NCBI GenBank assembly: GCA_027621915.1
Contig: JAQCAD010000010.1
Span: 1 to 64,000, forward strand
Origin: Pseudomonadota bacterium
GTDB lineage: Bacteria > Pseudomonadota > Gammaproteobacteria > Steroidobacterales > Woeseiaceae
Direction: 5' to 3'
Length of the DNA stretch: 64,000 nucleotides
The notes under the pieces were generated by a model. It had not been told where the DNA came from and searched no databases. It saw only the letters and a list, made by a program, of their open reading frames with translations. The position numbers were made by a program, and so were the translations under genes. Positions 3,577-20,855 of this stretch are shown one piece after another (the first letter of the stretch is position 1; each line of letters opens with the position of its first letter).

Positions 3577-3768
3577 GTGGACTATCGTGTCAAAGAGAAA
3601 AATGTTCGCTGCCCATTCTGCGCAGAGTCGATTTCAGTTCTGCTCGATCTCTCGGTGACCAACCAGTCTTACATCGAAGATTGCCAGGTCTGTTGCCGGC
3701 CGATGCAGATTATTTATGAGAGTGAAAATGGTCAGTGCACCAGTCTGCAGGTGGAATGTGCGTCGTAG
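3577..3768 (+). CDS. CPXCG motif-containing cysteine-rich protein
   Basis: Small 63-residue protein with two cysteine pairs, CPFC near residue 12 and CQVC near residue 36, in the arrangement of the CPXCG cysteine-rich family (zinc-ribbon type, function unknown). The second pair reads CQVCCRP. It starts at GTG 3577, six bases after the pdxH stop, so it is probably cotranscribed with pdxH. The following beta-propeller gene begins inside its 3' end. The name is a family name only; no biochemical role is known to me. Confidence 0.8.
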   Translation: MDYRVKEKNVRCPFCAESISVLLDLSVTNQSYIEDCQVCCRPMQIIYESENGQCTSLQVECAS

Positions 3769-5740
3769 TACCTCGACACTTGCTGTCATTTTTTCTTTGA
3801 TCCTTGCGTGGGTGCCATTGCAGGCCGACGTGGCCCGTACCAAAGGCAATAGCTTCGGCGCCGATGTCTCACGCATTGATGGCGATATCGCGATCGACTT
3901 CGCAGGCAGCATCTGGGTGATGCCAGCGAACGGCGGACAGGCAAAACAGCTAACTGACGGCCTGATACCCGCCGCGGCTCCTCGCTGGTCGCCCGATGGC
4001 AAAAGCATTCTTTACCATGTTCGGACGGCTGGCGGCTCGGAGATCTGGCAGATGGACGTGGCTACGACTGATTCGCGCCGGATCAGCGAGCCGGGCTATC
4101 ACTATCAGGACGCATCCTGGTATCCGCTGGGTGAGCGAATTGTTTATGCCTCCGACCGCGGGGATACGGGACTGGATATTTGGGAATCCGACCTCCCAAC
4201 AGGGCTCTCCTGGCGAATAACCAGCCAAACTGGCGATGAAACAGAACCAGCCTGGTCGACCAATGGTCACCACCTCGCATACATTCGACAGTCGGGCGGT
4301 CGCCACGCGCTGATATTACGTAGGCGCGGCGAACCGGAACAGATACTGATCGAGTCGGATGCGCGATTGTCGTCCCCATCCTGGCGGCCCGACGGCAGCC
4401 TGCTGACTTTTCTGCTGCACGGCGAAGAAGGCCCGTCGTTGCAAATGGTCATTCTTTCCGACCCCCCGCTCATCCGAACCCTTGCCACCGGGGAAGATTT
4501 TTTTGCATCGCCGGTCAGTTGGCGCGATCGCATGCAAATGATTTATTCGGCGGACGGCGCGATCAAGATGCGCGACTTCGAAGATCGTATGGCGCGACGA
4601 TTGCCAATTGTAGCGATCGTTAGTAATGAAACGGCACCCGCCCCAAGGGTGGTCCTGAGACGCGAGCTTAAAGTCACCAATCCTCCGCAAGGCAGGCTCG
4701 TCATTCGTGGCGCACGATTATTCGATGGTATCTGGAATAGCTATCGGCAACAGATGGACGTGCTAATCGAGCGCGGCAGAATTGTCGCAGTAGAACGACG
4801 GCACGACTGGGACGATGCCACGGTTCTTGATCTTGGAAACGTAACAGTCATGCCCGGATTGATAGATTCCTGGTCGCGCTCCCCGGCCACTTTGGCTGAA
4901 GGGACTGCCTTGCTCACTTATGGGGTGACGACGATCGTCTCGGCGACCGCGAAGCCCGGTTTTGACCTGTCCGCCTGGGAAGACGAGTTCATGCCGGGCC
5001 CCAGAATTCTGCCTGCCGCGACGGCAGCCGTCCCCGCGACAGCATCTGACCAGCCCGCTTATTACCTGGTCAGAATTTCGCCAGCCGCCGCTGACGTGGC
5101 ATCAATCAGGAACTACGTTGCTGCCTGGCACGCTCGCGGCGTGCCGGTCGTCGCGGACAACCGGGCTGCGGCAATGCGAGTCGGCGCGGGTATCATTCTG
5201 GGCGCTGATCCTCTGCAGGCTGATGCGCGACAGGTCCAATTTTCGCAGACGGAACAAATTGAAAGCCAGTTACAACCAACACTAATCTCCGCACTTGCCG
5301 ATGCCGGCACGCCGGGCATTCTGACCCTTCTGAACTCCAGGCAAGCTACTCTGCTTGGACAAGTATCGCGTCCTGGCCGGCGGATTGCGGGCAACGTGCA
5401 ACTCGCCACCGCGTCTTCCCGGGTAGTCGCGGGAAGTGAGCCGAATGGTCTGGCGCCCGGACTCGCGCTTCATGCAGAACTTCGCGCAATTCAGGGTGCC
5501 GGGCTCACCGCAGAACAGACCGTTCATTCGGCTGGCAAAAACGCGGCGGCGATGCTTGGCCTCGACAATCAGATCGGGACAATTACGCCCGGTGCGATGG
5601 CAGATCTGATCCTGGTCGATGGCGATCCATTGGGCAACATCGACGACCTGATCAAAATCGTGGCAGTGGTCCGAAACGGACGCTTTTTCAGCCTCGTAAG
5701 CCTGCTTGAGCGGGCCAACGAGACAACGACTGTCGAATAA
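3728..5740 (+). CDS. Exported TolB-like propeller / amidohydrolase-fold fusion, metal ligands missing
   Basis: 670 residues. An N-terminal signal peptide (hydrophobic core LAVIFSLILAWVPL) is followed by PD40/TolB-type propeller blades (RWSPDGKSI, EPAWSTNGHH, SWRPDGSLL), then an amidohydrolase-like half. The amidohydrolase part has the beta-sandwich entry GRLVIRGARLFDGIW and the exit PGAMADLILVDGDPL. The first metal site, normally MPGLIDxHxH, reads MPGLIDSWSRSP, with Ser at about residues 381 and 383. The late GTD motif reads VVAGSEP. It may therefore be catalytically dead or use another chemistry (inference). ATG 3728 has GAGAGTG just upstream; ATG 3716 is an alternative. Either start overlaps the CPXCG gene by about 40-50 bases. 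Likely periplasmic. Confidence 0.82.
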   Translation: MVSAPVCRWNVRRSTSTLAVIFSLILAWVPLQADVARTKGNSFGADVSRIDGDIAIDFAGSIWVMPANGGQAKQLTDGLIPAAAPRWSPDGKSILYHVRTAGGSEIWQMDVATTDSRRISEPGYHYQDASWYPLGERIVYASDRGDTGLDIWESDLPTGLSWRITSQTGDETEPAWSTNGHHLAYIRQSGGRHALILRRRGEPEQILIESDARLSSPSWRPDGSLLTFLLHGEEGPSLQMVILSDPPLIRTLATGEDFFASPVSWRDRMQMIYSADGAIKMRDFEDRMARRLPIVAIVSNETAPAPRVVLRRELKVTNPPQGRLVIRGARLFDGIWNSYRQQMDVLIERGRIVAVERRHDWDDATVLDLGNVTVMPGLIDSWSRSPATLAEGTALLTYGVTTIVSATAKPGFDLSAWEDEFMPGPRILPAATAAVPATASDQPAYYLVRISPAAADVASIRNYVAAWHARGVPVVADNRAAAMRVGAGIILGADPLQADARQVQFSQTEQIESQLQPTLISALADAGTPGILTLLNSRQATLLGQVSRPGRRIAGNVQLATASSRVVAGSEPNGLAPGLALHAELRAIQGAGLTAEQTVHSAGKNAAAMLGLDNQIGTITPGAMADLILVDGDPLGNIDDLIKIVAVVRNGRFFSLVSLLERANETTTVE

Positions 5741-6238: not shown

Positions 6239-6299
6239 TTTGGGGCACTTCGCCGGTGCAAAGCGGTCTATAGCTCGCAACAAAACCACGGGGAACGTC

Positions 6300-7103
6300 A
6301 TGTCATACAAATTCGCCAGAATTTCCACTTCCTTGTCCATCGCATTGCTGGTCTCGTGCGTCGGTGAGGACATGCCAGCGGCCGAAACTGCAGCGCCAGC
6401 CAACGCTTCGCCGCAATCGGCGTATGTGGCCGCCGTACAGCACGCGCGTAGAACAGACGCCGATCGCGAAAAAGACGCTCGCCGCAAACCGGCGGCCGTT
6501 ATGGAATTTTTTGGAATCTCGCCCGGCATGGATGTTCTCGATATGTTTTCCGGTGGGGGTTATTACACCGAGTTGCTATCGCGAGTTGCAGGTCCAGAGG
6601 GTACGGTCGTCGCGCATTCAAATGAGGCTTATAGGCAATTTGTCGGTGAGGAAGCCACCAACCGCTATGCGGATGACAGGCTGCCCAACGTCGATATTCT
6701 GATGGCCGAAAACACGGCGTTACAGATGCCAGACCAGGCATTTGACGTTGTCATGATGGTTCTCGCCTATCACGACATCTACTTTGTCGACCCGGACAAT
6801 GGCTGGCCGCAAATCGATGGCCCTGCGTTCGTGGCAGAGCTTTTTGACGCGCTGAGGCCGGGTGGTGTCCTGGGGGTCGTCGATCATTACGCTGCCGCAG
6901 GTTCGCCGGCTGAAACGGGCGGCACCCAGCATCGCATCGATCCGGCAATTGTTGTCGCAGAACTTGAATCTGCCGGATTCGTTCTCGAGGCGCAGAGCGA
7001 CGTTCTGCGAAATATGGATGACGATCACAGCCTGCATATGGGTGATCCTGCCATTCGCGGCAAAACGGATCGATTCGTCATGAAATTCAGAAAGCCTGAA
7101 TAG
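6300..7103 (+). CDS. Predicted lipoprotein with a class I SAM methyltransferase fold
   Basis: 267 residues. It begins with a lipoprotein-type signal ending LLVSC (lipobox, Cys about residue 20). A class I methyltransferase domain follows: motif I VLDMFSGGGYYTELLSR, an acidic motif, DVVMMVLAYHDIYF, and the late LRPGGVLGVVDHYA. It resembles the family of predicted exported methyltransferases (COG4798-like). Lipidation would place it outside the cytoplasm, where S-adenosylmethionine is not expected, so the activity is unclear. The ATG at 6300 has GGGGAA just upstream; the frame is open further 5' but lacks a better start. It sits alone after an intrinsic terminator. Confidence 0.8.
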   Translation: MSYKFARISTSLSIALLVSCVGEDMPAAETAAPANASPQSAYVAAVQHARRTDADREKDARRKPAAVMEFFGISPGMDVLDMFSGGGYYTELLSRVAGPEGTVVAHSNEAYRQFVGEEATNRYADDRLPNVDILMAENTALQMPDQAFDVVMMVLAYHDIYFVDPDNGWPQIDGPAFVAELFDALRPGGVLGVVDHYAAAGSPAETGGTQHRIDPAIVVAELESAGFVLEAQSDVLRNMDDDHSLHMGDPAIRGKTDRFVMKFRKPE

Positions 7104-7242: not shown

Positions 7243-8016
7243 ATGTTCAAAAAAATTCGCATTACTATTCTGTTGCTGATTCTCTTTTTCGTCGCTTTCG
7301 GTACGTGGTTGACTCAGGCACGAAGCACGGATTGGAATGACAGCCTCTGGGTCAAAATCTACCCGATCAATGCCGACGGTAGCGACGAGAGCCGCGATTA
7401 CATTCAGACCCTGGCCAAAGATGATTTCTCCGCCATTGAATCATTCGTCGCCCGGGAAATTCAAAAGTACGGACGAACCTTATCCCGACCTGTAAGGATG
7501 GAGCTGGGACGGGAAATCCGGGAACAGCCTCCGTTGATTGGCGAAGACCCCAGCACGCTCGACATCATGCTCTGGAGCCTGAAGATGCGCTGGTGGGCGG
7601 GGCGTACAGCCGGACCCCAGGACAGCCCGGATCCCGACGTCCGGATATTCGTGCGCTACCACGCACCGGATGGGCAGATCGTTCTCGAAAATTCGGTTGG
7701 CCTGCAAAAGGGCATGGTGGGTATCGTCAATGCCTACGCCGGTCGGCGCGAAGCAAGTGTCAATAACGTCATCATCGCCCACGAGTTTCTTCATACACTG
7801 GGTGCAACGGACAAATATGAGCCGGGAACCGGTCAGCCCGACTTTCCGCTTGGCTTTGCTGAACCAGAACGCAAACCGCTCTACCCGCAGAAAATTGCCG
7901 AAATCATGGGCGGTCGAATCGCCCTTTCCGAATTCGATGCGGTCGTACCCCAGAACCTGAATTTCGTGATCATTGGCGCAAAGACGGCGAGAGAGATACG
8001 ACTGACCAGTGACTGA
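7243..8016 (+). CDS. Membrane-anchored putative zinc metalloprotease, uncharacterised
   Basis: 257 residues starting at ATG 7243. Residues about 5-23 (ITILLLILFFVAFGTWL) form an N-terminal membrane anchor or signal peptide. In the second half lies HEFLHTLGATDKY, an HEXXHXXGXXD motif as in metzincin-type zinc proteases (two His and Glu, third ligand Asp here). The remainder (KMRWWAG, DVRIFVRYH) is not a family I can name. Most likely a periplasmic, inner-membrane-tethered hydrolase; the substrate is unknown. Note that TDKY follows the motif directly, as in some bacterial peptidase-like proteins of unknown role. Confidence 0.65.
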   Translation: MFKKIRITILLLILFFVAFGTWLTQARSTDWNDSLWVKIYPINADGSDESRDYIQTLAKDDFSAIESFVAREIQKYGRTLSRPVRMELGREIREQPPLIGEDPSTLDIMLWSLKMRWWAGRTAGPQDSPDPDVRIFVRYHAPDGQIVLENSVGLQKGMVGIVNAYAGRREASVNNVIIAHEFLHTLGATDKYEPGTGQPDFPLGFAEPERKPLYPQKIAEIMGGRIALSEFDAVVPQNLNFVIIGAKTAREIRLTSD

Positions 8017-14925: not shown

Positions 14926-15399
14926 TCACGCGCCTTTCAACAGCTCGGCCGCGATCAGGCTCTCCAGCACTTCCAGGTGTGGAATCAGTGGAAATTCGTT
15001 AATCATTTTGACTCGACACAGGACCGGGGCACCGTCCGGCCATCCCTTGGTCGAGTCGAGCTTCAGGACGTCCTCGTTGACCCTCACAAGTTGCGGGAAA
15101 CCCTGCGTCAGAACACCGAAGAATCCTGCCCGAATTCCACCAGTGGTCGAATAAAAAACGACTACCCTGGTCCGGCCGGTGGGCGCTGGCACATCCTTTC
15201 CGATAACGCCCTCGAACGCCACGACGGGCAGATCGCGCCCATTCCAGCCAATATTGCCCAGCATCCAGTTCCGGTTTCCTTCCTTGTGCACCGGCGCTGT
15301 ATAGCGAACTACTTCTGCTACACAGGCGCGCGGCACAATGAGGCGCTCATCCGCGAGCGGCACCAGCAGGCTGTACAGCTCTTCATCCGCGGCACTCAC
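14926..15399 (-). CDS. chpC: CheW-domain adaptor protein of the Chp system (ChpC-like)
   Basis: 157 residues forming one CheW domain: LIVPRACVAEVVRYTAP, WMLGNIGWNGRDLPVVAFE and VVFYSTTGG. It would couple a receptor to kinase ChpA. In P. aeruginosa chpC lies near the end of the pil-chp cluster, and here it directly follows chpA with a 4-base ATGA overlap, so the symbol rests on position plus domain. It is the last gene of the operon, since rsmE runs toward it. No chpB (methylesterase) gene separates it from chpA. Confidence 0.85.
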   Translation of the reverse strand: MSAADEELYSLLVPLADERLIVPRACVAEVVRYTAPVHKEGNRNWMLGNIGWNGRDLPVVAFEGVIGKDVPAPTGRTRVVVFYSTTGGIRAGFFGVLTQGFPQLVRVNEDVLKLDSTKGWPDGAPVLCRVKMINEFPLIPHLEVLESLIAAELLKGA

Positions 15400-18300
15400 T
15401 GAAGTGATATTCCCCGTTCATCGAGAAGCCGGCGGATCGCGTCAAGCAACTGCGAATCCTGATACGGTTTGCCAAGATAATCGTTTACGCCGATCTCGAT
15501 GGCCCGCGCACGATGCTTGTCGCCGACCCGCGACGTAATCATGATAATCGGAACGGTCGAGACACGGTCGTCGTTTCGCACGTGCGTGGCGAATGCGTAG
15601 CCATCCATGTTCGGCATTTCAATGTCGAGCAAAATGATATCCGGCCTCGCGTCCTGCAATACGCTGATCGCATCCAATCCATCCTTGGCCGTAATAACGC
15701 GAACGCCGTTGCGCTCAAGGAATCGTTCCATCACACGTCGAACTGTAATTGAGTCATCGACGACTAGTGCAAGGGGTCGAGTGTCTGACGGTGTTGGTGC
15801 CGCGGCCTTCAGTTCAACCACTGGCGCACCTGCACGAACCAGGGCGTTAATATCCAGAATGAGAACGATCGAGCCGTCACCAAGAATTGTCGCACCGGAT
15901 ATTCCTCTGATGCTGGACAATTGTGGGCCGATGGACTTCACAACAATTTCCTGGCTCGTAATCATCTCGTCCACGAGAAGCGCTGAAGAATGGTCCCCGG
16001 CGCGAACAAGAATTACTGGCACATGCGAGTCTTCTTCCGGAAGTTTCGCCGATTGTCCACCAAGGTACATGCCCAGATGACGGAACCGGTATGTTTGTTC
16101 GCCGTACTCGTAGCTCGGCTCACTCTGACTCAACCGCGTCTCCAGGTCGGACCGTGCAAGTCTCACCACGCCTTCAACAGTCGGCAGTGGCAACGCATAA
16201 ACCTCTTCGCCGGTTCTGACAATCAGGGCCTGCGTAATTGCCAACGTAAATGGCAACCGAATGGTGAAATTCGTACCGTGCCCGGTGACAGAAGAGATTT
16301 GCAACGATCCGCCCAGCTTCTTTATTTCGTTGGCCACGACATCCATGCCAACACCACGACCAGCACTCTGCGTAACTTTTTCTGCCGTGCTAAAGCCAGG
16401 CGTCAGAATCAGCTGCATGATTTCGTCGTCAGAAACCTTGCTGCCAGATTTCAGCAATCCCTTCTCAAGCGCATTACGTCGAATGCTTTCGACATTCAGA
16501 CCAGCACCGTCATCCGCCACGTCAATGATCATCTCGGCGCCTTCGCGATGAAGGCGAATGGTAATCCTGCCACTGGCAGGCTTACCCGCTGCCTGGCGTA
16601 TATCCGGACTTTCGATACCGTGCACAACTGCGTTGCGCATCATGTGTTCGAAAGGTGGCAACATCTTGTCCAGCACCTGTCGATCGAGCTCACCTGATGC
16701 GCCCTCAACAGAAAGCTCTGCCCGTTTGCCCGCTTCGGAGGACACTTGTCGAACCAGGCGCGTCAGACGTGGAACGTGCTGCTGGAATGGAACCATACGC
16801 GTACGCATCAACCCGTCCTGCAACTCGGCCGTCACGCGTGATTGTTGAACCAGCAGGGTGTCCGCCTCGGACGTCAGATTCTGCATGAGATCCTTGAGGC
16901 TACCCATATCGTTCGCGGACTCTGCGAGGGCGCGCGTCAATTGCTGAATATTGGAATAACGGTCGAGCTCAAGAGGATCGAAGTCCTGCGCGATGAGCGT
17001 ATCCTGATGCCCGTGCATGATCTGCGCTTCGGTTTCGATCTCCAGCTTCCTCAATTGTTCGCGAAGCCGGGTAACGGTCTGTTCCATTTCCTCTACATGA
17101 AATTCAATTGATTTGATTTGCTGACTGAGTCGCGAGTGGAAGATGCTGATTTCGCCTGCCGCGTTCAGAAGGTCTTCAAGCAGCTCCGCGTCGATTCGGG
17201 CAAATTCCTGTCGCGCATCGCCCGACCTCTGGGTTGACGGCGCACGCGCCCCACCAACTTTTTCGCGCATCGATCGCCCGGCGGATATCACATCTTCTTT
17301 CGCCGCCGGTGGCTCGACAACGGGCTCTTCGTCAACCTGTTGCTTGACGAGGGATTCCTCGATGGCCGGCTTTTCGATAAAAGGCTCTACAAGCGTCAAT
17401 TCTTCGACAGCAGGCAATTCGACGATCCGCTCCTCCGCGGGCGACGCCTCTGAAGGGTTTCGGATGTCCGCCAGCTCATCGTTTAGCGGTGTATCAACGA
17501 TGACCATGCTCATCGAGTCTTCGGGCTCGATGGTAAACCGAGCCGCCTCGGATTCCTCGACATCCGCCGGTGGCAGGTCGGGAACGACCGGCGCCAGAGG
17601 TGTCTCGCCCGCGTTGATAGAATGAATACGCCTCTCAAGATCGGCGGCCGCTGCCACTGTCTTGCCGGCGATTACCATATCTCGCATGCGGTGCAATTCG
17701 TCGATGCTTCGCTGCAACATGTCATCGATCTGGGGCCCTGCTGCAATCCGCCCGTCGTCTACATTAATCAACAGCGCTTCGATTTCGTGACTGAGGTCAC
17801 CCATGGCGGCGATCCCCGCCATGCGGGCGCCGCCCTTAAGCGTATGCAGGTTCCTCTTCAGCGCCTCAACGTGCCCCCGTGAAGCGCGATCGGCCTTCCA
17901 TGCGCCGAGCGCCTGATCCGCTTCTTCCAGCAGTTCTGCCGCCTCTTCGGAAAATATCGCCGCAATTTCGGCGTCGTAGGCAGGCTCTTCCTCGACTGGC
18001 TCGTGGAATACTGCCTTCTCGGGCAGCGCCTGCACGATCGCCGTATCCTCAGCCGGGATTTCGGGCTCGGCCTGGTCCGCCAGGTTATTCAGGTGCCCGA
18101 TTAGTACGCCAAAGTCCGAGCGGTTGCGTTCGGGCTGATTGATGTCAGCGACAATCGTCGTGAGTGCCTTGACCGCAGCCTTGAGTGCATCAATGCCGGA
18201 CTGCTGAAAGCCGATCTTGTAGTCGTAGACGCGGCGTACGAACCGATTCAGCGCGCCAGCTACTGCGACCCCCCGCTCGACGTTTGCCATGTTAGCGCTA

Positions 18301-20855
18301 CCGTGCAGCGTATGGCAGGCACGGTAAATCTTATCGGTGACATGGAACGGCGGACGGTGACCGACGCAGGCTTCGATGTAGTCCAGAATTACCCTCAGGT
18401 GACCAAGCGTCTCCTTGGAGAAAATATCGAGCAGTACCGGATCCATTTCCAGCGCGGCAACATTTTCGTCTTGCTGCAGAGCATCAGGCCTTGTGATGGT
18501 CAGATCAGCCGCGTTCGGATCTCCGTCCCCGAAGGCGTGGGCGCGCGCCATCAACAAACTGATATCGGTCTGTGGTTCCGTGCCAACCTCCAGCTGCTCA
18601 ACCAGTTCCGGCAACGCTTTGGATGTTGCCATAATAAATTTGATCATTGGCGGCGTACGGACCAGCGTTTTGTTGATGAGCCGGTTCAACAGGCTCTCGA
18701 CACTCCACGCATACTCGCCGATGCGCTCCGCGCCGACCATGCGCCCACTACCCTTCAGTGTGTGGAAAGAGCGCCGAACCGTAATCAACGTTTCCATGTC
18801 ATCCGGAGATTCTGCCCACTGCGGCAGATTGCGCGCGATGGTGCCGATCTCCTCTTTTGCTTCTTCGATAAACAATTCGAGAAGCTCCGGATCGAGATGT
18901 TCTGCCGTCTTTGAAATCACCGGTGCCGGCGGCATCACCATGGTGACTTGTGGACCCGCCGGTGGAACTGGCGGTTCTGCGGCAGCGATAGCATCGAAAT
19001 TCGGTCGCTCTAGGCGCATCGTTGAAGACACCGTTGCTGTGTCTCCAGGTTCGTATTCCACACGTTCGGCCAGATCGATATGTGTCGTCTGCTCTGACGA
19101 CAGGCGTAACTCCAGGTCGCGCAATACCGTGAGGCAGGCCTCAGCATTGTCCAGCATGTACCAGGGTTCGCTTCGTCCGGCCTTTACCGTCTCCATGTAA
19201 TACTCAATGCTGACAATTGCATCGGCAAGGCGGTCCATCTCTTTCTGCGTTAGCCTGCCCGGGCCCGAACCGGACAGAGCCATCATGAGGAGGCCACCTA
19301 CTCTTTCAACGACTTCCATCGCCCGGGTCTTGTTGAGCATAAGGAGGCCGGACTTGATTCCGCGAATCAGCGCCGGCACCGCGTCCAGTCCCTGAGAGCT
19401 TCCTTTCAATGCCAGACTCTGACTGAAGGTCTCTTTGATGCGTGCAAGATTGATAATGCTCTCTCGCATAACCGCCTCGGCGACTTTTTTATAGTCAGCG
19501 TTTTCTTCCGGCGGCAGCACCACCTCTGACTGGGCCGCGTTCGGTTCCGGCGGCACGATTAACCGCACCAGTTGCTGATCGAGCCGATCTTCTACCCGGA
19601 GCAGCGTCGATGCGATCTCGATAATCGTTTTTTCGTCGACGGGGCCGCCCTGCGCTACAACATTTTTTAGCCGGTCGATTTCGGAATCGATGTCACCCCT
19701 CAACTCACCCAGACCCAGCACGCCAAGCGTGTCACTGATTTTTTTTAGCAAATCAAGTTGCGGCACAAGTTCGGAAGCGTTGTTCATGCCGGTTCGAACG
19801 AAGATATCGAGTACGTCTTTAACCCTGCCCAGGTCTTCTCTGATTGCCGCCGCCACAGTCTTCATGAGCTTGACGCTTGGCGCGGACAGAGCCTCCCTGG
19901 CGTGTTCTACCTGCTCGTCACCGGGCAACAATTCGGAGAGGTTAAATGCCGCCCGTATTTCACTGATGCGCTCGCCGGCATGGCTGGATCGGGCAACGTA
20001 GTAGAGCAGATTGTTGAGGAGGTCTGTGACAGGATGGTTGTTGAACGCTTCAAGACCTTCGTCAATCATAAGCTTCATCTGACGATCGGTCTGGCCAAGT
20101 AGTCGCTTCACAGCAACCGAAGTCTCAAGCCCTCCGTTTTGCAGGGATTCCAGCACGCCACCTGCTACCCACCACAACTGGTGCATGTCATCGCGATTGG
20201 CGGCAACCTCCAACGCCCGAACTACGCTGGACAGCGTCTCAAGGTGTCTTGTCGTGTCGCCGCCCTGAATCCAGCCCAGGAGCGCGAGCTGAAACTTTGG
20301 CCGAAGTTTACGTGCCACGTAAACCGGATCTTCGCCACTCGCTACGCGACCGGCCTTGCCTATCGACTTGCTTTGCGGCGACAGGTTTAGCAGCAGCAGC
20401 GTGCCTTCGGATAGCAGAGGCTTTCCTCTGGCGGCGCGCAAATCATTCAGCATCGGCAGCAACACCAGGGCAATGTCACGTCCGCCGCCCAGCAATCGCT
20501 CGATGTAGACGGGGAGTTGCACCATTGCCCTGGTCAGGGCATCGAGCCCGTCCTCGCGACCCTTGCCCGCTCGAAGCGTCGCAAGGTAATCACACACTTC
20601 CTCCATTTCCTCGGCAAGCAATGCCGCGCCGTAGGTTTCAGTCAGCTTCAGCGCGCCACCGACCTGGTGTAACAACTGGCCAGAGCGGACCAGTGCCGGC
20701 GTACCGCCGCGACCATCAACACAGTCTTCGAGCGCCAGGTGAGCGTTTCGAATCGTCTCCATTAACTCATGGCTGACGACAACGAGTGCATTCGCTGCGG
20801 CTTCGACAGTACTGTCGAAATCCGGCTGTTCCTGAATGCCCGATTGGCTGGTCAT
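15396..20855 (-). CDS. chpA: Hybrid chemosensory histidine kinase/response regulator of type IV pilus control
   Basis: 1819 residues. It autophosphorylates and signals to PilG/PilH. Order seen: an N-terminal region of about 600 residues with helical, mostly degenerate HPt-like units; three clear HPt domains with phosphoacceptor His at about residues 698 (FHTLKGSGRM), 848 (HTLHGSANM) and 1004 (HTLKGGARM); a low-complexity acidic linker; dimerisation helices; the ATPase with N box HMMRNAVVHG (Asn about 1408), DVADDGAGL and GRGVGMDVV; a CheW-like domain; and a C-terminal receiver with Asp about 1744 (ILLDIEMPNMDG). P. aeruginosa ChpA is larger, with more intact phosphotransfer domains. It follows pilJ after 24 bases, with no pilK between. 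Confidence 0.96.
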   Translation of the reverse strand: MTSQSGIQEQPDFDSTVEAAANALVVVSHELMETIRNAHLALEDCVDGRGGTPALVRSGQLLHQVGGALKLTETYGAALLAEEMEEVCDYLATLRAGKGREDGLDALTRAMVQLPVYIERLLGGGRDIALVLLPMLNDLRAARGKPLLSEGTLLLLNLSPQSKSIGKAGRVASGEDPVYVARKLRPKFQLALLGWIQGGDTTRHLETLSSVVRALEVAANRDDMHQLWWVAGGVLESLQNGGLETSVAVKRLLGQTDRQMKLMIDEGLEAFNNHPVTDLLNNLLYYVARSSHAGERISEIRAAFNLSELLPGDEQVEHAREALSAPSVKLMKTVAAAIREDLGRVKDVLDIFVRTGMNNASELVPQLDLLKKISDTLGVLGLGELRGDIDSEIDRLKNVVAQGGPVDEKTIIEIASTLLRVEDRLDQQLVRLIVPPEPNAAQSEVVLPPEENADYKKVAEAVMRESIINLARIKETFSQSLALKGSSQGLDAVPALIRGIKSGLLMLNKTRAMEVVERVGGLLMMALSGSGPGRLTQKEMDRLADAIVSIEYYMETVKAGRSEPWYMLDNAEACLTVLRDLELRLSSEQTTHIDLAERVEYEPGDTATVSSTMRLERPNFDAIAAAEPPVPPAGPQVTMVMPPAPVISKTAEHLDPELLELFIEEAKEEIGTIARNLPQWAESPDDMETLITVRRSFHTLKGSGRMVGAERIGEYAWSVESLLNRLINKTLVRTPPMIKFIMATSKALPELVEQLEVGTEPQTDISLLMARAHAFGDGDPNAADLTITRPDALQQDENVAALEMDPVLLDIFSKETLGHLRVILDYIEACVGHRPPFHVTDKIYRACHTLHGSANMANVERGVAVAGALNRFVRRVYDYKIGFQQSGIDALKAAVKALTTIVADINQPERNRSDFGVLIGHLNNLADQAEPEIPAEDTAIVQALPEKAVFHEPVEEEPAYDAEIAAIFSEEAAELLEEADQALGAWKADRASRGHVEALKRNLHTLKGGARMAGIAAMGDLSHEIEALLINVDDGRIAAGPQIDDMLQRSIDELHRMRDMVIAGKTVAAAADLERRIHSINAGETPLAPVVPDLPPADVEESEAARFTIEPEDSMSMVIVDTPLNDELADIRNPSEASPAEERIVELPAVEELTLVEPFIEKPAIEESLVKQQVDEEPVVEPPAAKEDVISAGRSMREKVGGARAPSTQRSGDARQEFARIDAELLEDLLNAAGEISIFHSRLSQQIKSIEFHVEEMEQTVTRLREQLRKLEIETEAQIMHGHQDTLIAQDFDPLELDRYSNIQQLTRALAESANDMGSLKDLMQNLTSEADTLLVQQSRVTAELQDGLMRTRMVPFQQHVPRLTRLVRQVSSEAGKRAELSVEGASGELDRQVLDKMLPPFEHMMRNAVVHGIESPDIRQAAGKPASGRITIRLHREGAEMIIDVADDGAGLNVESIRRNALEKGLLKSGSKVSDDEIMQLILTPGFSTAEKVTQSAGRGVGMDVVANEIKKLGGSLQISSVTGHGTNFTIRLPFTLAITQALIVRTGEEVYALPLPTVEGVVRLARSDLETRLSQSEPSYEYGEQTYRFRHLGMYLGGQSAKLPEEDSHVPVILVRAGDHSSALLVDEMITSQEIVVKSIGPQLSSIRGISGATILGDGSIVLILDINALVRAGAPVVELKAAAPTPSDTRPLALVVDDSITVRRVMERFLERNGVRVITAKDGLDAISVLQDARPDIILLDIEMPNMDGYAFATHVRNDDRVSTVPIIMITSRVGDKHRARAIEIGVNDYLGKPYQDSQLLDAIRRLLDERGISLQ

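Follow-up and report, generated by a model that had tools for sequence, protein, structure and literature searches.

The window, the whole 64,000-nucleotide stretch of DNA analysed here, from a marine-sediment bacterium of the Woeseiaceae, carries a gene that raises a question: what is a protein with the fold of a metal-dependent hydrolase kept for when its metal site is gone? The gene is an intact open reading frame on the forward strand (3728-5740) that encodes 670 aa, or 674 aa if translation starts at an upstream ATG at 3716. A sequence-only reading had taken the product for an exported fusion of a propeller and an amidohydrolase that has lost its metal site, perhaps a binding or scaffold protein.

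A propeller fused to a metal-less amidohydrolase

Pfam domains and structural matches agree that the protein is a propeller-amidohydrolase fusion. The N-terminal half matches the PD40 beta-propeller family (66.2 bits, cut-off 20.9), and in the C-terminal part residues 581-652 match PF01979 (Amidohydro_1; 36.0 bits, cut-off 25). An AlphaFold2 model based on a 24-sequence alignment has a mean pLDDT of 84.0 and a pTM of 0.82, with one poor stretch at residues 495-514 (pLDDT under 50). The amidohydrolase half of the model aligns with the carboxypeptidase 3mtw over 300 residues (Z 28.7, rmsd 3.0) and the propeller half with TolB 1c5k over 243 residues (Z 27.5, rmsd 2.7). With PF01979 above its cut-off and the match to 3mtw, the protein belongs to the amidohydrolase superfamily by fold and descent. 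It falls outside the TolB family, which calls for an equivalog score above the curated cut-off and a TolB N-terminal domain: with the NCBIfam TolB model it reaches 88.8 bits where 343.15 are needed, and only profile positions 260-417 are matched; the propeller fold is like that of TolB in the Tol-Pal system, but here it is fused to an amidohydrolase domain.

Along the forward strand, the gene starts with a probable N-terminal export signal, read by eye (residues 1-34, 3728-3829; helix at residues 13-26 in the model). Hydrophobic N-termini are also seen in sampled relatives, and the protein is probably exported, judged by this apparent signal sequence. The TolB-like propeller (residues 36-300, 3833-4627) is followed by the N-terminal half of the amidohydrolase beta-sandwich (residues 321-376, 4688-4855), delimited from the model, the structural match and conservation. 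Then come PGLIDSWSR in place of PGLIDxHxH (residues 376-384, 4853-4879), a reduced TIM-barrel segment of 182 residues (residues 385-566, 4880-5425), GSE in place of GTD (residues 569-571, 5432-5440) and the strongly conserved C-terminal half of the beta-sandwich, which is supported by PF01979 and conservation (residues 611-656, 5558-5695). The same composite of beta-sandwich and TIM barrel is found in the Xaa-Pro dipeptidase/Xaa-Arg carboxypeptidase group (3mtw, 2qs8, 3be7, 3feq), of which 3mtw is the best structural match of the C-terminal half. Unlike that group, the window protein has all six aligned metal-site positions replaced.

Alignment with intact relatives places the six positions H, H, K, H, H and D at W382, R384, R449, D477, G492 and E571; from knowledge of the superfamily, we take the aligned HxH, Lys, His, His and Asp columns to be the metal ligands. 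The window protein thus lacks what marks an active metal-dependent amidohydrolase: the HxH, the bridging Lys, the two later His and the final Asp. The sequence-only reading had seen S-W-S at residues 381-383 in place of HxH; these residues are present, but the register was off by one, and the aligned His positions are W382 and R384. It was right that the late GTD reads GSE, with E571 at the ligand Asp, and three further losses (K to R449, H to D477 and H to G492) are added here. It had also asked whether relatives share the loss, which turns out to be family-wide: 76 of 84 aligned family proteins keep none of the six positions, eight keep one, and HxH is absent from all 84 (the fragments G031 and G093, the split frame G032 and G088 were left out of this alignment). 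As a yardstick, 30 of 33 intact two-propeller relatives have all six positions and the remaining three have four; these 33 rows (30 loci) were preselected by tree position and motif and are no independent sample.

The case against a lost site would be other His or Asp residues that rebuild it. Only four His (359, 468, 582 and 600) lie in the amidohydrolase part of the window protein, which has no Cys from residue 21 onward. Among these His only H582 is conserved (29/33 long-barrel members); it does not fall on a ligand position and also occurs in 32/33 intact relatives. A rebuilt metal site is therefore unlikely and, at the level of sequence, we reject it, given that the family alignment contains no candidate residues. 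We likewise give very little credence to the protein still being a hydrolase, with a different metal site or metal-free: the fold is largely kept in long-barrel members, but there is no conserved cluster of His, Asp or Glu outside the old scaffold positions in the family alignment, and the barrel is cut down to 66 residues in relatives.

Distribution, selection and descent

At E 1e-40 the gene is found in 88 of 107 Woeseiaceae genomes, the window's own counted, and it is present in 40/45 good-quality family genomes and in 11/12 genera. None of the nine g10 genomes (a genus with 1.1-2.0 Mb) has it, and it is hence dispensable there. In a class-wide sample, two of 321 genomes matched at E 1e-80, both of them Woeseiaceae and one the window's own; order-wide, 79 of 246 genomes matched at 1e-60, and the matches outside the family are full-length or partly eroded forms. 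In the contig scan for relatives the alignment query was productive, while a single-protein query gave no matches.

Given that 88 of 107 genomes carry a metal-less gene, the loss does not belong to the decay of one gene. Whole-gene dN/dS is 0.105-0.276 in 20/20 pairs (Nei-Gojobori), where single values are rough because dS exceeds 1 in several pairs and is under 0.1 in the two closest. When the window gene is paired with L021, the barrel has a dN/dS of 0.35 and the remaining parts have 0.10-0.14, but the barrel excess is not universal across pairs, with 0.129 in the barrel and 0.112 in the propeller for L034 and L035. Gene order is also conserved: among 78 other loci, adhC is found in 67, a metzincin-like gene in 63, cysQ in 60, an ABC ATPase in 52 and a methyltransferase-like gene in 39, and a gamma-glutamyltransferase lies near the gene in 67, of which 36 have it at the expected side and strand. 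These counts are lowered by contig ends, and adhC and cysQ were named by eye. The conserved order reflects vertical descent and has little bearing on function.

That the gene is decaying or an assembly artefact is consequently most improbable. The barrel is indeed less conserved than its flanks, but purifying selection, deletions common to many independent assemblies and vertical synteny stand against both, and we reject decay and sequencing error on the 88/107 distribution, the dN/dS range and the conserved gene order. What remains is a gene kept by selection after its catalytic residues were lost, which is what defines a pseudoenzyme; the six missing ligands, a loss common to the family and its sister group, and purifying selection support the sequence-only reading on this point.

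Selection has acted unevenly along the protein. In the 33 long-barrel rows, positions conserved at 85% or more make up 27% of the propeller, 41-43% of the C-terminal part and 14% of the barrel, as against 19%, 23-33% and 18% in intact relatives, and the comparison bears out the good preservation of the beta-sandwich parts on either side of the barrel. Residues that are conserved across the family, though not among intact relatives, are found chiefly in the propeller (including D46, R86, E153, W162, R163, R198, R220, R250, D267 and R268) and in the C-terminal sandwich (including R649, R652, F653 and R662), a count that is biased toward the propeller because barrel columns deleted in many members cannot qualify. 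The window protein itself deviates at two family-typical residues, Y132 (H in the others) and H193 (W in the others).

Order of losses and contraction of the barrel

On the tree, two-propeller amidohydrolases of about 1,000 aa (for example L131-L165; L257) are the ancestral type. They have the same order of propeller A followed by amidohydrolase but differ from the window protein in their second propeller, in retaining HxH and in most cases GTD, and in a barrel segment of 208-244 residues (L257 outside this count) compared with 182. In a tree of 134 proteins (L161, L171, L149, L155, L157, L158, L163 and L228 left out), the Woeseiaceae proteins group with those of f15, a family of the same order (joint branch 0.98). 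The f15 proteins are full-length and mostly two-propeller, and seven of ten keep none of the six metal-site positions while three keep one. L139 and L229, which adjoin the pair of Woeseiaceae and f15, keep zero and one. Since the sister group shares the loss, the simplest order is that the metal site went first and the second propeller afterwards.

Partly or wholly lost sites occur elsewhere in the order. L139, L228 and L229 are two-propeller proteins that read PGLIDLDAR or PGLIDLHAR, with the site lost or half lost. In f6, the one-propeller lineage of genus g48 (L217, L218, L219 and L221) has HxH in 4/4 proteins and has lost the Lys in 4/4; its members keep four, three, three and two of the six positions, and the later His and Asp are mostly lost. 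By its motifs, this is a second, partial erosion in a separate lineage of the same order.

We measured the barrel segment as the stretch that aligns with window residues 385 to 566. Its median is 239 residues in the 33 intact rows, about 57 above the window protein, and 219 in ten f15 rows. Within Woeseiaceae the rows fall into classes with medians of 182 (33 rows, including the window), 137 (12), 102 (22) and 66 (17). The propeller segment is near-constant at 275-282 residues and the N-terminal sandwich segment measures 65-69 residues, each in 84/84 rows. A tree of 67 rows, 60 of them from the family, was made with the barrel columns excluded (24/84 family rows, including L107, the most divergent, and 3/10 f15 rows were left out). 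It needs six changes between long and short barrels, and the well supported branches alone force at least four. We read these changes as contractions, given that long barrels are found in f15, in the intact relatives and in the family's earliest branches. On this tree the barrel has thus contracted separately at least four times, most simply six. The 66-residue class is a single clade within the 102 class, and one contraction lies within the window's own genus (L047, L048 and L052).

Near-identical blocks were removed in different lineages. In window numbering, the missing residues are 427-473 in L055, 428-474 in L089, 436-482 in L098, 433-514 in L048 and 436-516 in L052; two blocks are missing in L070 (433-478 and 480-515) and in L066 (437-486 and 494-520), and three in L081 (433-478, 480-515 and 522-555). 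The predicted structure of a 540-aa short form has a mean pLDDT of 85.6 and a pTM of 0.52, which suggests folded parts whose arrangement relative to one another is uncertain. The remnant of this form still aligns with 3mtw over 220 residues (Z 21.1). The in-frame loss of core elements relative to complete relatives, with a predicted structure for the remnant, fits domain atrophy.

The TIM barrel is commonly viewed as an all-or-nothing fold. In this family, living lineages with conserved synteny carry orthologues that range in stages from a dead enzyme of full length down to a remnant of 66 residues. One can therefore test which barrel elements are expendable, the order in which they are lost, and whether catalysis has to be lost before them. 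We give even chances to the idea that loss of the metal site freed the barrel, and that separate lineages removed nearly the same blocks to arrive at stable partial barrels that now act as the platform of a propeller receptor. If so, the family would be a natural, stepwise taking apart of a TIM barrel within one orthologous family.

Likely role and wider setting

We think it probable, with real room for doubt, that the gene encodes an exported, metal-free pseudo-amidohydrolase that is vertically inherited, whose propeller and beta-sandwich are under selection and which works by binding. The ancestor would have been a large enzyme with two propellers and a metal-dependent TIM-barrel hydrolase. 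The loss shared with the full-length f15 proteins shows that it gave up all six metal-site positions. The Woeseiaceae form has no second propeller and a shorter barrel, and several branches later excised further barrel segments. Selection, seen as conservation, keeps the first propeller together with the beta-sandwich framing the old active site. The propeller face may hold a ligand or bind another protein, either in the periplasm or extracellularly, with the sandwich as a base for the propeller and the barrel as dispensable filler. A binding or scaffold role of the propeller on its sandwich base is what we infer from this pattern.

The main rival, which we consider unlikely, is a pseudo-subunit that regulates or stabilises an active amidohydrolase paralogue through mixed oligomers. 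Candidate partners are at hand, as the window genome has 50 PF01979 matches, including a 1109-aa two-propeller protein with PGFIDTHAH. That two-propeller paralogue (L257) occurs in 27/107 family genomes, though, as against 88/107 for the pseudoenzyme, and we therefore reject it as an obligate active partner. The locus of L257 (893-4222, reverse strand) keeps PGFIDTHAH and, by eye, has GAH in place of GTD. For a genome of 3.56 Mb (G000), the 50 matches amount to a large amidohydrolase set, and many of them are frames of 550-630 aa that cover only the later part of the model.

Pseudoenzymes and domain atrophy, to which a binding protein of this kind would belong, are already known. The CRMP/DPYSL pseudo-dihydropyrimidinases are also amidohydrolase-fold pseudoenzymes with non-catalytic roles but, unlike the Woeseiaceae protein, these animal neuronal proteins have full barrels and no propeller. 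The partial TIM barrel of LuxF/NFP is a case of domain atrophy, listed in a survey of 75 cases whose abstract states that most losses spare the functional site (PMC4432964); that survey and a TIM-barrel review call atrophy rare (PMC4432964, PMC8250049). As in LuxF/NFP, core barrel elements were lost in frame from a protein that stays functional (PMC4432964); in contrast, the loss in Woeseiaceae is graded, parallel within one family and follows the loss of the active site. In the open-access literature we found no graded, parallel series of barrel loss in one orthologous family of dead enzymes, no paper that joins Woeseiaceae with amidohydrolase, none on a fusion of amidohydrolase and TolB beta-propeller, and none on CRMP pseudoenzymes; a single review came up that links pseudoenzymes to the amidohydrolase superfamily. 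The searched main text of two Woeseiaceae/Woeseiales genome papers (PMC12175321, PMC7082342) does not contain the terms amidohydrolase, TolB, propeller or M38. For annotation, the family is a warning that some proteins labelled 'amidohydrolase' in abundant sediment bacteria lack catalytic residues.

Several other features of the window can be described. A conserved neighbour (7243-8013, forward strand), found in 63/78 other loci with side and strand alike, contains HEFLHTLGATDKYE (metallopeptidase-like) but has no Pfam match; its N-terminus is probably a membrane or export segment. The gene at 6294-7100 (forward strand) is methyltransferase-like, with PCMT and Methyltransf_11 above cut-off, and has an apparent lipoprotein signal at its start; an exported SAM-type fold would be odd. 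Farther along, the reverse strand carries an open frame of 1819 aa (15396-20855).
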